From Opeltia flavorubescens (Eukaryota > Ascomycota > Lecanoromycetes > Teloschistales > Teloschistaceae): a stretch of 64,000 nucleotides of DNA. Shown here in pieces: positions 26,577-51,921 of this stretch. The DNA lies in the NCBI GenBank assembly GCA_000442125.1, contig KE546971.1, positions 498,583 through 562,582 on the forward strand. The letters are read 5' to 3'. The stretch's first letter is position 1. Each line of letters begins with the position of its first letter. The translations under genes were made by a program, and so were the position numbers. A model generated the notes under the pieces. The model ran no database searches. It was not told the origin of the DNA and saw nothing but the letters and a program-made list of their open reading frames with translations.

Positions 26577-27599
26577 ATGGACATCATCCGCCCCTACCTC
26601 CTCCCCCTAACGCACTCCCTCCCCACCCCCTTCGTCACACTCGGCCACTCCCTTCTCGGCCCCGAATGCTACAACCAACTCCTCCTCCGCCTCGACCTCA
26701 CCCCCTCCTCCCCCTGCCTCTCCCTCGCCGTGTCAAAAACCCTCGGCCTCGGAATAATCACCCTCTCCTCCATCGTCAAGATCCCTCAAATCCTAAAACT
26801 CATCCAAGCGGGGTCCGCGCAGGGGATATCCCTTCTCTCAATCCTGCTAGAAACATGCGGGCTTTTGACAACGTGTGTGTATAGCGCGAGGATGGGGTAT
26901 CCATTCACGGCGTATGGGGAGACGGCGTTTATCGCGGTGCAGGACTGTGTGATTACGGTGTTGGTGCTGGTTTTTGGGTTGGGGACGGAGGGGGCAGGGA
27001 GGGAGATTGCGGGNNNNNNNNNNNNNNNNNNNNNNNNNNNNNNNNNNNNNNNNNNNNNNNNNNNNNNNNNNNNNNNNNNNNNNNNNNNNNNNNNNNNNNN
27101 NNNNNNNNNNNNNNNNNNNNNNNNNNNNGGGTGGGGATGGAGATGTTGGGGTGGATGCAGGCGGGGGCGGGAGTGCTGGGGGTTGCGAGCAAGGGCCCGC
27201 AGATATGGACGAATTGGACAGAGGGGGGGACGGGGCAGTTGAGTGCTTTTACCGTGAGTTTTCCTTGTCGTCTCTTCTTTTCCGTGTCTCGTGCGCTTTT
27301 CTTGGATTGGTGGGCTAATGGATGGTGTTTGGGAATAGGTCTTTATGTATCTGGCTGGCTCGCTTTCGAGGATCTTCACGACTTTGCGGGAGGTGGATGA
27401 TAAGTTGATACTTTATGGGTTTGTGGCGGGATTCCTTCTTAATGTGGTGCTGGCAGGGCAGATGGTCTATTACTGGAAGAGCCCGGCGACTGCGAGTCAT
27501 GCTGGTGAGCTTGGAGAGAAGCCAAAGGAGATTGCGATGGGTTCGAGCTCTGGGGTTTCGGCGAAGGCGAAAGGACCTTCGACTAGGAGACGAGGATGA
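26577..27599 (+). CDS. MPDU1: MPDU1-family PQ-loop membrane protein (interrupted by assembly gap)
   Basis: Exon 1 runs 26577-27253 and contains the N gap at 27014-27128; exon 2 is 27339-27599 after an 85-nt intron. Two PQ-loops are visible: IVKIPQILKLIQAGSAQGIS before the gap and VASKGPQIWTNWTEGGTGQL after it, with hydrophobic helices around them. This is the layout of mannose-P-dolichol utilisation defect 1 protein, an ER membrane protein needed for use of dolichol-linked sugars in glycosylation. The frames on the two sides of the gap do not agree for a 115-base gap, so the true gap length differs or an intron lies inside it. The C-terminus is a polar tail (KPKEIAMGSSSG). Confidence 0.82.
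27014..27128. other. Assembly gap (115 N)
   Basis: A run of N inside the MPDU1 coding region, starting in the strongly G-rich second half of the gene. Confidence 0.99.
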
Positions 27600-43889: not shown

Positions 43890-45488
43890 CACGATAAATG
43901 ACTGAGCTGGAGGAGTTTGGCCATCAACGGGCTGTCGTCAAAACATTGAATTGCAGCTTGGACGATGTAGGATATAGGCTTGTCGTTTAATGCACGACTG
44001 CCGCAAGCGCTGCGAGCTCGTCGCATATTGGTACGAAGTATTTCGCGGGATGCCAACCCAAGGACCCTCGCTGGACCCCATTCCCCATCTCCCATTTCCT
44101 ATATCGCATATACGCAGCTTATCACTAGGCTTTCGTCGTCAGTAATACGCGCGCCACGAGGGCAAGGCAGCATTCGCCTCCGTATCTTTATTGGGAATAT
44201 CATTTCTTTCCGACCGTATCGGATTATCAATTCAAATAGCAATCCCACGATATACTAACAGCCTCGAAAATCATCCGGATGTAGCACTCTCACCAAATTC
44301 TTCCTTGTGCACTTACGTTAGTGAACAAACCTCCAGGATTTCTGTCTTGACAATGGCGTTCCTATCTTATAGTGTTATATACCGTTTTGAAAGACTAAAA
44401 AACAGCTAAATGGCATAGTGATATACATTCGCTGTCTTGTAGAATTTCCTCAGCTTTCAACGCAGGAGCGATTTTCTCTTTTCTTCTCCCGTTTCCACCA
44501 CGTTACAGTCAGTCGAGGATTTTAAGCTTTTTAATATCTGATTGCGCTGCAGCAAACAGTGAAACGGACGGTAGGTGCCCCCTATCGGTACTTTAAGTCA
44601 CGAAATGTTTGCCAATTTTAGCTGCAATTGATGGGAAGGGCTCTTTTCTACTCGAAGTTCTCGTCGATTTTGGTAATCGGGCATAAAGGGTATTCGGAAT
44701 AAGAGCTCGGATGAGGCGGAACAAGACATCGGGCTCTTTGATATATTTCGGAGATTTAGCGAGTAAAGTTATAATTGTGTTTCCTCATTGGCAGTTAAGA
44801 TCAAACGTTCGTTTTTATCGAAGTCCTTTTGGACTTTGATGGAGAAAAATGAATTGAAAGGGTAAAGCGCCGGTTAAACTTCGGGCCAATGCCCCGGAAA
44901 GGTCCAGCACGTCCCGTTGGGGCAAAAATGATTCGCAATGTGGAGGCCTACGGTAACCGCTAAACCTGGCCCCTAAAGGTGGTATTTAGCCCCTAAAGTG
45001 GGAGCTTAGGCGGGAATCCTACCGCCTGCCGTAGGCCCTCACATTGCGAACTATTTTTGCCCCAACGGGCACGTTAGCTCAAAATAGTCCAGCCCCCTTC
45101 TTAGTCGTTGCATTTGGGATGCTTCCTACTGCCTTCATTGAAATTATTCCCCGTATCTCAGACTGTCAATATCAATCATGACTACGGAAGAAGAGTGCCA
45201 GTGTCTATCATCAGATCGGTTTGCTGGGAGACAGGATTCAAGTAACGCATACATAATCAAATACCCCCAAGTTTTGGGTGATCCAATTTGAAACCGTTCA
45301 AGGTGATTAACGAAGATCTCTTTTTACTCTTACATACCTCTGTCGTCTAAAAAGGAAAATCACCCAACCCGTTATTGCCAATGTCTCCACACAGAGAAAT
45401 GAAAAGTCTAGATCATCCATCACCCTTCCCCCTTCCATACCCTCCCAACCACCCTTCCCACCTCCCCACCACCTCCATCCAATCTTCA
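43890..45488. other. Gene-poor interval containing a MITE
   Basis: About 1.6 kb between two minus-strand genes, AT-rich around 44400-44850, with a single small transposon-like element at 44913-45069. No protein gene is supported. Confidence 0.5.
44913..45069. mobile_element. 157-bp MITE-like element with terminal inverted repeats and CACGT target duplication
   Basis: The ends are inverted copies: the outer 17 bases CCCGTTGGGGCAAAAAT match exactly, and homology extends to about 42 bases with a few mismatches (through TTCGCAATGTG and GGCCTACGG). It is flanked on both sides by CACGT (44908-44912 and 45070-45074), a 5-bp target-site duplication. The interior has no coding capacity and contains two CCCCTAAAG direct repeats. 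This is the form of a non-autonomous DNA transposon; the superfamily is not assigned. Confidence 0.82.
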
Positions 45489-48400
45489 CTATTTCTTCCT
45501 CCTAGCCCTTTTCCCCGCCCCCTCATCCTCCTCCTTGGCCTTAACCGTAGCTTTCCTCTTCCGCTTCCCAGCCGCCGCAGTCGCCGCTGGTGTCTCTCCG
45601 CCATCCTCTTCCCCCAAATCAGCAGCATCCATATCCCCAAACGGCACAGCAGCTCCGTCATCAACCTCCCTTCCCTTACCCTTAGCCTTAGCCTTAGCGC
45701 GAGGTTTCCTCGCTGCTGTTGCTGCTTTTGGAGCTGGTTGGTCGTCATTGTTCCCCTCCGTTGTCTCAGCCTTCGTGGCCGATTCTTCGGAATCTGGGAT
45801 TTCTGTTCTCTTCTTCGCTGCTGGGGTTTTTCGAACTCGTTTTTTGGGTGGAGGAGGAGGGTCGGCATCGTCCTCAGCAGTGGCGGTGTTATCGTTCTCG
45901 GGTTTGGCTTTTTTAGCGCGTGGTTTGCGGGTCTTGATTTGTGCTGGTGTTGGTGCTGCGTTGGTGGATACTTCGCCGGCGGGGTTGGGAATCGAGGTAC
46001 CGGTTCCTCTGTCCCTAGCGTCGGCGGGTTCTGCTTTTGTTGCTCGTGGTTTTCGGGCTGGTTTTGGTTTTGCGGCGGCTGCTGTGGTGGAGGGTCCGGG
46101 TGTCCTACCCCTTTTTGGTGGGGCTGGTGGTGGGTTGGGGGTTATGGCAAGGCTTGCTGGTGCCGAGCCCGATCTTGTAGCTCTTGTTGCTGTTGATGCT
46201 ACTGCTGGTGCAGCAGAGCCAGATCTGTTTGTGGCTGCTGCGGCGACGGAGGCTTTTGGAATAGCTTTATTATTAGCTGCAGTCTGCTTAGTGGAGGCTT
46301 CTTCCGCGACTGTTTGCAAGGTCGATGGCTGTGGAGTACGGCTACCGCGTGCAGTTGCCTTCGTGGTGGGACGAACAGCTCGCCCTTTCGACTTTGGTGG
46401 AGTCGTCGAGGTATCGTCATCAGTCGCAGCCTGGGTAGGTCGCTGTGTTGCCTTTCCTTTCCGCTTCGTTGCGGCTTTTTGATATCTGCTCGAGATGTAG
46501 TCCTGGTCAAGACCAAACATTGCTTTGTCAGGTCTGATCATGATTGTCTCGAAGTTCTCGACTGATGTCTTGCAATCTTTAGCATGTGCCGCTCGCCCCT
46601 AGGAACACTCATACATCAGTCGCTTGTTCTGCCTATTTCGAAATGCACTTACCGCGTCGCTTAGTTCGTTCATGATATGGTGACACTTATCACATCTTAG
46701 CCTCTCAGCATGTTCCCCTGGCTTATGGCTCATTGAGTCGTTGGACTTTGGCTTCGGTTCTTCGTAATCTTCCGTTGGATTTGTTCGTGTTGCCGTCTCT
46801 CGCAAACTCTCATGACTAGACTCCCGCATGCGCGTGCGATCGAAAGAAGTATTTGGGTGCAATTTGATATGCTCGTCACATTGCTGGCTCTCGAGTAAGC
46901 TGCGAACCATGATTTACAAATTGGACGTTTTACCTTAGGGGTCAATAGTCCAAGTGGACAGTAGCAACCGGGTTTGCTACACTGCTGAAAGAGTCCCTCG
47001 TGACCTGAGATATGTTTTATGACTGCCTTTGATCTTGTTTAGCGCTGATTGGAGTTAGCTATGCAGCGTACCCACCAGATGCGACGGATAGAGACTGCGG
47101 TCTTCCAGATTCTCTAGGCAGCCTTCCTGCGGGCAGCTCCGTGGATTAGGTGTGGCGTGCGAGCGGTAGTGCTCCCGAATCTGTTTCAAATCAGATCAAC
47201 TGGAAGGAGGTCTTGTGCGAGGAAAAGCCTTACAGCGTCCTCGGCTGCAGGAGAGGACTTGATGAAAACCATCCCGCACACTTTACAGGACTCCTCACGG
47301 AGCAGAATTTCGTCTTCCGCATGGTCGAGACGCCTTTGTAGACGGTCTATGTCAGGAGTGGTAGCTCTTCGTGAAGGGCTAAGTGCTGAGGTGAATGAAT
47401 TTCTTCCAGGGCTCCTGTTAGCAGAGAGCGGTTGCGCAAAATCTCGGACCGTGGAGAAGGACCGAAGGGGAGACTGAGCTGGCTGAATACTTCGATCTGG
47501 ATCTAAGCTGGAAAGAGCCCCGAAAAGGGGCTGGGGCTTGTTCGGACTACGGTATAGGGCTTTCACGGCCTGGTCTTCAATTCGTTTTCGCCGCATGTTC
47601 TCGGCAGTATCCCTCATTCTTATCGTGGTTGAATCATTGGACTCTTCCTGTTGCTCATCAGATGATCTACTCGAATAACAGATTTGGGATCGTGGGACGC
47701 ACATAGTCTCCAGGATATATAGCAATTGCATCGCCGTCAATCTTGTACAGGATCTCAAGCATGAATTGGATAAATGAATGCTTCAGTCCCCATTGAAGCC
47801 ATTCTTTCTTACCCCCGGTAGGCGTTTCACGTATGACATGGAGTAGGATGCCTTTGGGAGATATTCGTGGATCGATGTCGAGTAGTGCCTTCGATATGGT
47901 GGCTAATTCAGTCATGATGCTTTCAGGCGGTACACTCCACTCTGATGCGCCATTGTCTCCTTCCTCTACTTCTCCAAGGGCTGATGTATCCCAGATCTCA
48001 GCCTCCTTGCCACTCTGAGTTCCATCAAAGACCCGGATCTTGTTCTGCGATCAAGGTGTATGAGTCCAAGAAAGCCAATCTGTATCGGACTGACACTTAC
48101 GAAGATTTTGATCGCCCAGACGTCTTCGTCAGGTACCAGCCAGTTTCCCATTATATCCTGCCGCCACCATTCTTCGAGCGTTTTATGCTTACCGTGAGGC
48201 TTCATGTATCCGTCCTTGCTTTCTGATATCACAGTCAATAGCTCTCCTCCATCTCGGAAGGCCCCTGAAGGACTAATCCTAAGGCATAAATCCCCTTCGG
48301 TGTCCGGATATAGTTCTGACCTGGCTAATTCGAAGAACCGCGCTATTGTATGAGGAACCTCATATCTGAACAGTGTGGCTCTGGCTGGCCTGTGGACGAA

Positions 48401-49875
48401 AATAGTACCTTCGGCTCTTGCCATGCCTGGGTCAGATTCAGCAAGATTCAAATGATATTCAGCTGATATCAACCTACTCGGACTCTTCTGACTTGGACTA
48501 GCTTGCGGTCTGTCGAGCACTAATCGGTTCGAAGGCCATATCTTGATTTTGCCAGGCTTAACACCCGCTTGTCTATCTCTGGTCGTGATGAGACTGAGTT
48601 GCTCTTGTATTTCAGCGCTCAACAACTGACCCACACCACGTACGAGATGAAAAGTTTGACCGTCAGGCAATTCCATGTCGAATTCGTCTTGGTTACTGAA
48701 GGCCGAAGGCGGGAAAAGTAAGTCAAAAATAGTGTTCGCGAAGATGAGACTATTAATTGACGTCTGCCCCTTATCCTCCCATCTATGCCACTCTGCTAAT
48801 ATTGTCAAGAACCCCATATCTGATGCCTCGACCTTCAATTCCCTTGAATCATCGCAATTGCAGTCAAAGCTGCAGTGGTTTTTCTCCGTGCGCACACGGA
48901 TCCTGGGCTTTGGATCACCTCCTTGGAGGATTGGCAGAATTTCCTTTTCGTATATTCTTCTTGATGCATGATATGATCTATGGCCTCGTAGAGCCATGGC
49001 GTAATCGGTTGCTGCGGTACCATTGCTACCTTCAACTTCTACGGTATACTTCTTTTGGGCGGCGGAAGTTGACGGATATCCAAAAATCTGCCAATCATGT
49101 AACATGAGTGCTTCCGCAAGATCGCAGAAGGATACAAAAGAGTAATCTTTGAGCCACAAGCCAGCTTTATGACCATATATCAGGGTTCTAGGGCGTAATA
49201 TGAGCCTTAGCTTGGCACTAGGCTGCTGAGCTGCAGCAGCAGAACTGGCGAATGCATTACGGAGTCCACCGCCACCATAGCCCTGATTGAGAGCGTGCAT
49301 GGCGAATGCGTGACGTATTCGCTGGTCCAAAGTCATGGCTGTTGACTCTTCTTCATCTGATCCGTCGGAAATCCCTATCTCATCAGCGAAACGCAAGGTC
49401 TTCTGCTGGCGCTCAGGACTAAAGGAGCCGGAATAGCCATTTTGCAATACTGGAAAGAGTTGAGTATCCTATGCCGCCTGAAGGAGAGGTGTACCTTACT
49501 TGAACTACGGGCCATATTTGAGTCGATCTTTGCTCCACCATTCATGAAGATCGAGTTGCCGTTCATGTTGTTGAATCGACTAGGCGTTGGAACCCTCCCT
49601 GAAAAATCTAATGTTCTAGGTGGACGTTCGCTCGTAGCTGGGAAGCCGAAAACACTCTCCTCATTGCTCTCGTCTCTAGTACGGTCGATCGCATGTAATG
49701 CACCTGTAAATGCTACATGCTGTCGTCTTGCAGTATTTCGCAATGGCCCTACTTCTTCACCAGCACTGAGCCTTCGTGTAGGAGCTTTAGGGCGATGTCT
49801 TATGGTATGCTCTGTCCACGGGATCGCTTGATCATTCCTTGACCCTGAATCGCTGCACTGAGGAGTAAAGCTCAT
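45489..49875 (-). CDS. Unrecognised ~1,333-residue protein with several atypical zinc modules and basic C-terminus
   Basis: Eight exons whose phases all agree: 49875-49500, 49449-48101, 48044-47703, 47647-47234, 47180-47072, 47004-46934, 46883-46653 and 46598-45489. The N-terminal half is globular and unknown (AKLRLILRPRTLIYGHKAGL, CSFDCNCDDSRELKVEASDM). From about residue 815 come Cys/His modules in sequence: SCKVCGMVF with IREHYRSHA; CPQEGC with YPSHLVGHEG; QCSKPGCYCPLGLLTPKQCD followed by EHIKLH; and LRCDKCHHIMNEL with AAHAKDC. The last ~350 residues are basic AT-hook-like repeats (TRKPRAKKAKP, ARKPRAKAKAKGKG) ending KRARRKK. A nuclear, nucleic-acid-binding role is inferred. An ATG at 46910 could suggest a separate downstream gene, but it lies inside a predicted intron. 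The exact 3' splice site of intron 3 is the weakest point. Confidence 0.65.
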
Positions 49876-50418
49876 GGTTGTCAGTACTTCACAGCCTTCT
49901 GCAGGCTCTATTCCTGTGACGTCGTGCTGGTTTGTTATTATGGATAAGGCCAAAAAGAAAGTTCGCGACTTGACATGAAGAGCTCGGAATGTGTTTTCCC
50001 GTTGCTTTGGTCACCCGAGGAATGTGAAATAGCTTAGTAAAGCTTGAGCCACCGACCATGTATACGGCAAGTACGAGAAGAGGATTTTTTTTAAATATGT
50101 TGAAAATAGAAATCGAAAGACTTGACCAACATTGCATTCAAGAAACAGAACTATACAAAATAATAATCTAATTGGAGATATGTGATCTTCAGTTCCTCGA
50201 AGCACCAAACCTGCCTCATATCGACTGATGAGATCCGTCGACTTTCCAGGTCCTCCTATCCCTTGACTAGGCATCACTTGAAAGGGGGAAATTCTCAGGT
50301 CATTACACACAGATCTGTGGTCTCCCCAAATGATCAAAGTCTCACTTCGGGCCGTTCAAGCTGCAGAACGCATCTTATCAGTTGACAGTTTCTCGTTGCC
50401 CTCGACTTAGACTAGGTA
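49876..50418. other. Intergenic region
   Basis: 543 bp between two tandem minus-strand genes, holding the promoter of the zinc-module gene. No element recognised. Confidence 0.4.
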
Positions 50419-51921
50419 CTAAGCAGTGGCAGTGGTCGCATTTTCAGTCTGGTTAGACGGATTAAGAACAAGTATACTCGAAGGCGGATTGTGTGTTTTG
50501 TCGACATGGTTCCAGATGACGCTCTTTCCACCACTCCGTTGCCAGCCTCGAGCATACCTCATCACTTCGCCTATAGCTGGCGTACCGTACTCTTCTCGAA
50601 TCTGGTTGGTCGCAATTGCATCTGCAATTAGACCAGCTGCCAGAGGTGCAGCTATCATCGAAATTAGCCGTGGTTTTCGAAAATCGGACATAAATGTTTG
50701 ATAGACGCACCAAAGGAAGTTCCTGTGTCAATTCTGATATTTGAATTTGAATCATGGGTAGCGCACTTGATCTGTACCCCCGGAGCAAATACGTTCCAGC
50801 GATCAGCGAACGGTTTGACAAGACTCTGTGAGGTTCGCCAGAGTCTTCCTCTGTTGTCAACATTTGAGACTGCAAGAACTCTGTTCATATTAGATTTTAC
50901 TGCAAAGATTGCAGGTGCAGTATCTATGTCAGCTCTCAAACGGCCCATTCTGTCTGTTTTTTGTGCTGCGTTGCCTGCGGCGAAAAGAATCAGGGCTCCG
51001 ATTGCATCAAGCTCTTCGACTTGTCTCCGGACTCTTCGCCAATGCGACCAATAGCCACCTCGGTCGATGTCTTCCATTCTAACGGGCTCTCTGGAGCCCC
51101 AGGAGACAGTTACGATGCTTCGGCCCTGCCTGCTGTTCTCAAGAATGTGATCGGTTATGGTTGAAAAGATCTCGCATGTGGAGGTTGGACGAAGATCAGG
51201 CATCTTAACGACGACTAATGTGGAAAGACGCGAAGACCCATATAGACCACCGGCAGCTTTTGAAGCTACACATGTACTGTGGCCTGGAGCTCGTGAGGAA
51301 GGAGCTTCGGTCTCGATATCATTGCCTGTGAACTTCGCTCGATTGGTATACACCCATTCGACGGGACGGCCAGCGAAGTCGATATGCTGAGGGTTGATCC
51401 CGAGCTCCGCATGATAGATGAAGATCTGTTTCTGTACATCTGATCGGTATACATAATCGTGATATTGAGTGAGAGGTTCAGGGCCAGGAGGCTGGGAAAT
51501 AAATCTCAACTCTTCAGTTGCTAAATGTTGGACTTGGTAGTCTGCGAACTGCTCTACTAATGGCTCATTGGCGAAAATATCCTCGATCTATTTCATGTTA
51601 TTCTTCTGTTTGATGTTTCATAGAATCAATTATGGGGCTTGTGGAGACACGGACCCACTGATGCTTTTTCAGCTCGCCAAAGCCAGCTTCGGAGAGGGAA
51701 GCTCCCCAGTAGGTGGGAACAGGTCTCTTCGGTCTCGTGGAAGCATAAACCTTCTCTGGATAAAGGGCAAGGCGTTTTATAAGGAGACCCAACTCGTTTC
51801 CTTGTTCGTAACTAAGACCATCTATAGGGAAGATGATGCATTCAATATCAATGGCAGAAACGACAGATAAGAGTAAGGCAAAGCTGGCGCACAAGATCTG
51901 ATAGACTATGGTGACGTGCAT
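50419..51921 (-). CDS. Subtilisin-like (S8) secreted protein with altered catalytic motifs
   Basis: Exons 51921-51655, 51587-50711 and 50651-50419, with introns of 67 and 59 nt, give 458 residues. A signal peptide (SFALLLSVVSA) leads. Splicing of the last intron restores GTSFAAPLAAG, the Ser motif of subtilases, and the oxyanion Asn is in ILFAAGNAA. The Asp motif, normally DTG or DSG, reads AELGINPQH, so the catalytic Asp appears replaced by Glu. The His motif, normally GHGTHVAG, reads GHSTCVAS. No clear inhibitor-type propeptide can be recognised. It may be a weakened or non-catalytic subtilase homologue. The first intron (donor GTCCGT) is inferred from frame and is uncertain. Confidence 0.75.

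Follow-up and report, generated by a model that had tools for sequence, protein, structure and literature searches.

The window analysed here, a 64,000-nt stretch of the Opeltia flavorubescens genome, carries on its minus strand a gene of 1,339 codons that is divided into eight exons by seven introns of 49–56 nt (Table 1). The encoded protein comprises an N-terminal half (residues 1–809), a block of four Cys/His modules (residues 810–979) and a long basic tail. Neighbouring frames match a fungal-type mRNA 5′-triphosphatase (mRNA_triPase), RPN2, a class-II DAHP synthase and a P450, a set that, taken with the roughly 50-nt introns, suggests a filamentous ascomycete. A subtilase (Peptidase_S8) domain is located upstream on the same strand. 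Just past the 3′ end of the gene lies an inverted repeat with 50-nt arms that are 84% complementary and separated by a 57-nt spacer; since 151 of its bases have counterparts at 10 further genomic sites, with 70–78% identity (a lower bound), the repeat is probably a member of an old family of short, MITE-like elements that are non-autonomous. The window also contains a stretch of 115 N and two lone N positions. An Rfam scan of positions 44500–51000 gave no matches, and no tandem repeats were found within 45400–46700. Searches of the organism's own genome (34.4 Mb, 23 contigs) with residues ~164–689 and 786–1012 returned the gene itself as the sole match and no second copy of these two parts.

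Table 1 Positions of the gene, its parts and the adjoining features within the window
Feature	Coordinates	Strand	Remarks
Whole gene	49875-45489	(-)	ATG 49875, stop ending 45489; spliced-ORF search
Exons 1-4	49875-49500, 49449-48101, 48044-47703, 47647-47234	(-)	Spliced-ORF search
Exons 5-8	47180-47072, 47022-46934, 46883-46653, 46598-45489	(-)	Spliced-ORF search
Introns 1-4	49499-49450, 48100-48045, 47702-47648, 47233-47181	(-)	Spliced-ORF search
Introns 5-7	47071-47023, 46933-46884, 46652-46599	(-)	Spliced-ORF search
Intron 6	46884-46933	(-)	Contains the apparent downstream start ATG 46910
Residues 203-689 (exons 2, 3)	47703-49219	(-)	Hydrophobicity as in folded regions; matches no known family
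His/Cys cluster, residues 317-324	48854-48877		HCSFDCNC
Putative finger 1, residues 810-835	47157-47287	(-)	C810, C813 (exon 4), H831, H835 (exon 5); intron 4 between
Putative finger 2, residues 843-867	47012-47135	(-)	C843, C848, H861 (exon 5), H867 (exon 6); intron 5 between
Putative finger 3, residues 878-902	46857-46981	(-)	C878, C883 (exon 6), H898, H902 (exon 7); intron 6 between
Putative finger 4 (C2HC), residues 957-979	46572-46694	(-)	C957, C960 (exon 7), H975, C979 (exon 8); intron 7 between
Basic, low-hydrophobic tail, residues 985-1339	45492-46556	(-)	NLS-like clusters, three RKPRA repeats
Subtilase (Peptidase_S8) domain	50667-51587	(-)	Upstream neighbour
Inverted repeat	44913-45069		Past the 3′ end of the gene
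Run of N	27014-27128		Length 115
Lone N	30700, 42226

The exon structure was tested with a spliced-ORF search that seeks the longest spliced frame, with permissive splice rules and a penalty for each intron, and that is blind to the zinc modules and to the protein. With the loose branch motif YTNA and the intron penalty, the search returned exactly the eight-exon model with agreeing phases that had been put forward in the preliminary description, including all seven introns; its length is 1,339 codons and not the approximately 1,333 given there. As intron 1 lacks the stricter motif YTNAY, the search with that motif recovered the six 3′ introns and placed the start at 49336. An additional intron in the last exon (45647–45587), proposed under YTNAY when the penalty was omitted, was discarded. 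Among 60 dinucleotide shuffles the longest spliced frame was 663 nt (mean 375 nt), and the opposite strand yielded at most 1,131 nt. For six other genes in the window the identical search gave introns of 44–70 nt, and of 49–60 nt in the RPN2, P450 and WDR55-like genes, where RPN2 and P450 score far above their Pfam cut-offs and the WDR55-like gene clears the WD40 cut-off only.

Codon usage, compared with the other two frames of the same strand, prefers the frame of the model in exons 1–4, 7 and 8, with small margins in exons 1, 4 and 7. No such preference is seen in exons 5 and 6, which are short and are supported by their open frames and by the finger ligands that they encode, nor in the 46199–46000 piece of exon 8, where the higher-scoring alternative frames contain stops. 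Two local variants of intron 2 are possible, either with the acceptor at 48039 or with the donor at 48094, each of which would alter the protein by two residues. A donor at 47075 for intron 5 introduced a stop in the combinations tried and was rejected.

A strong argument for a single gene comes from the position of the introns relative to the Cys/His modules. Introns 4, 5, 6 and 7 each interrupt a different module and separate its ligands, so that splicing selected for open frames alone completes four sets of ligands; as every module is completed only by its own splice, one gene, and not two or three, is strongly favoured. The alternative is that one gene ends before 46933 or reads into intron 6 and that another begins at ATG 46910, which does lie inside intron 6, as had been noted earlier. 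From this ATG a frame of 455 codons is open provided that intron 7 remains spliced, and the donor of intron 6, GTAAAA, is a middling one. Such an arrangement would, however, divide finger 3, as the 960-residue product with the intron retained has no finger 3 histidines and the 455-residue product from the ATG has no finger 3 cysteines; moreover, the blind search splices intron 6 under both branch rules, in line with the proposal that this intron unites one Cys/His module, and the neighbouring introns divide the other three fingers likewise. The two-gene arrangement is thus highly improbable.

The preliminary description placed at least four Cys/His modules at about residues 815–985, and four are found, at 810–835, 843–867, 878–902 and 957–979. 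They had also been regarded as dissimilar and atypical, a view that is not supported, since all four fit the C2H2/C2HC spacing and their nearest, if weak or sub-threshold, likenesses in the PDB and Pfam are to fingers of this class. The pattern C-x2-4-C-x12-17-H-x3-5-H/C occurs four times, and a hydrophobic residue follows four positions past the second cysteine in all four modules. When residues 800–1000 were shuffled, none of 20,000 shuffles reached three modules with this pattern, while with a wider pattern three modules were reached in five of 20,000 and four in none, these counts favouring the modules to some degree as the ranges were chosen after the modules had been seen. Fingers 1 and 2 are separated by seven residues (H835 to C843), and seven residues is the usual length of a C2H2 linker. 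In charge, fingers 1–3 are approximately neutral (10 K+R and 11 D+E).

Among the 10 matches listed in a PDB sequence search of the zinc block (E up to 10), the best is the finger domain of YY1 (1ubd_C), with an E value of 3.9e-4 that is summed over three weak stretches. The matches to ZNF410 and GLI (E 0.5 and 0.68) are at chance level, as are those to the unrelated chains of uL13 (E 0.055) and cytochrome c7 (E 0.098). The similarity to YY1 lies in the Cys/His spacing, in the hydrophobic residue past the second cysteine and in the seven-residue linker that joins fingers 1 and 2, whereas the present protein differs in the longer loops of fingers 1, 3 and 4, in the absence of a TGEKP linker, in its neutral charge and in its large, unrelated N-terminal half. 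No Pfam zinc-finger model matches at its cut-off. The best, zf-C2H2_3 from the ESCO acetyltransferases, scores 18.1 against the required 27 bits and covers 16 residues about the two cysteines of finger 1, with an E value of 0.0023 when the fragment is searched and of 0.13 with the entire protein; no acetyltransferase domain was found with Pfam. We conclude that the modules are probably divergent C2H2/C2HC fingers and not a new module set, and they are predicted to bind zinc; they are called C2H2-like and not certified members of the class because they score below the Pfam cut-off, which is a detection threshold and not a defining trait of the C2H2 fold.

The N-terminal half resembles no described family in the collections searched, in accordance with the preliminary description. 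Pfam scans of the complete protein (E up to 1) and of six fragments (E up to 10) gave nothing at the cut-offs, and four fragments spanning residues ~202–689 had no Pfam match even at E 10; likewise, nothing reached the cut-off in an NCBIfam scan of two fragments. In PDB sequence searches, the exon-2 frame and residues 203–689 gave no matches at E 10 and residues 1–201 and 690–809 none at E 1, which leaves residues 1–809 with no match in either Pfam or the PDB sequences. Residues ~203–440 returned 22 and 1 pattern matches from prokaryotic and viral collections, respectively, none of them a relative. Lineage-specific fungal proteins are often absent from Pfam and from the PDB sequences. Single-sequence structure predictions of residues 200–575 and 455–575 had mean pLDDT values of 34.5 and 35.3 with every residue below 50. 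Ubiquitin-like pieces in residues 300–440, considered on account of a weak strand-helix pattern, were dropped, as the structural model carries no confidence and no profile match was found. The half is otherwise poor in cysteine, and the His/Cys cluster HCSFDCNC in it could constitute a further metal site.

The tail is markedly basic (71 K+R vs 41 D+E, a net of +30), with a hydrophobic fraction of 0.08 and with basic clusters at residues 1132, 1199, 1223, 1315 and 1333, on which grounds the earlier assignment as a nuclear protein appears probable. The same description spoke of AT-hook-like basic repeats. The basic character and a threefold repeat, RKPRA at residues 1152, 1194 and 1267, are evident, but strict AT-hooks are absent: within residues 985–1339 neither RGRP nor GRP occurs, RGR is found once and there is no match to the Pfam AT-hook model, and the tail is therefore AT-hook-like at most.

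Tentatively, and with a likelihood that falls somewhat short of even, the protein may be a chromatin-associated scaffold, that is, a fungal nuclear protein anchored on DNA by its tail. The tail, rich in Lys, Ala and Pro, would be disordered in the manner of a histone H1 tail, would carry the import signals and would bind DNA or nucleosomes largely irrespective of sequence, and the four divergent fingers together with the N-terminal half would bind partner proteins. The gene structure, the spacing of the zinc ligands and the composition of the tail are computed features; we infer the nuclear location, the binding of zinc, a tail that is disordered and binds DNA, and the binding of partners elsewhere in the protein. 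As fingers 1–3 are neutral, strong DNA binding is less likely to be provided by the fingers than by the tail, and the finger charge leans towards contacts with protein and not DNA, charge alone being a weak guide.

An unlikely alternative, yet the foremost of those considered, is a sequence-specific transcription factor in which fingers 1–3 would read a DNA site, the tail would add affinity and the N-terminal half would regulate transcription. The similarity to the YY1 fingers and the usual length of the linker between fingers 1 and 2 speak for such a role, while the non-basic finger block, the long loops in three of the four fingers and the missing TGEKP linker speak against it. Distinctly less probable is a function in DNA repair or RNA metabolism, with fingers that would bind RNA, ubiquitin or SUMO. 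The combination of neutral fingers and a long basic tail and the weak likeness between finger 1 and that of ESCO are compatible with such a function, but no domain of such pathways was found with Pfam. CHAP of the Neurospora HCHC complex and Clr1 of fission yeast both have zinc fingers. A heterochromatin-complex subunit like these two proteins is very unlikely: reviews describe CHAP as a fungal AT-hook chromatin protein that helps to target silencing (PMC7218100, PMC13297926), the likeness by description being that of a chromatin protein of fungi whose DNA-binding motifs are basic, and four chromodomain matches exceed the cut-off in this genome, two of them in frames with no internal stops, whereas the tail has no AT-hook core and chromodomain proteins, being common in fungi, prove nothing.

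Residues ~200–690 might form a fungus-specific folded module with no described relative, which, along with the intron-split fingers and the basic tail, would make the protein a subunit dedicated to a chromatin complex of fungi that is so far unrecognised, a speculative proposal whose likelihood we consider low. An uncharacterised fungal zinc-finger protein is more likely than a new kind of machine. No description of the protein was found in the literature with general-word queries, which cannot show its absence from print. For annotation the locus represents a trap, as each of the four zinc fingers is split by an intron of about 50 nt, and a single missed intron conceals a finger and can produce a false second gene. 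As things stand, the gene model is well supported and the product is a further fungal zinc-finger protein that is uncharacterised; if the N-terminal half proved to be a new chromatin-linked fold, it would add one more subunit to fungal nuclear biology.
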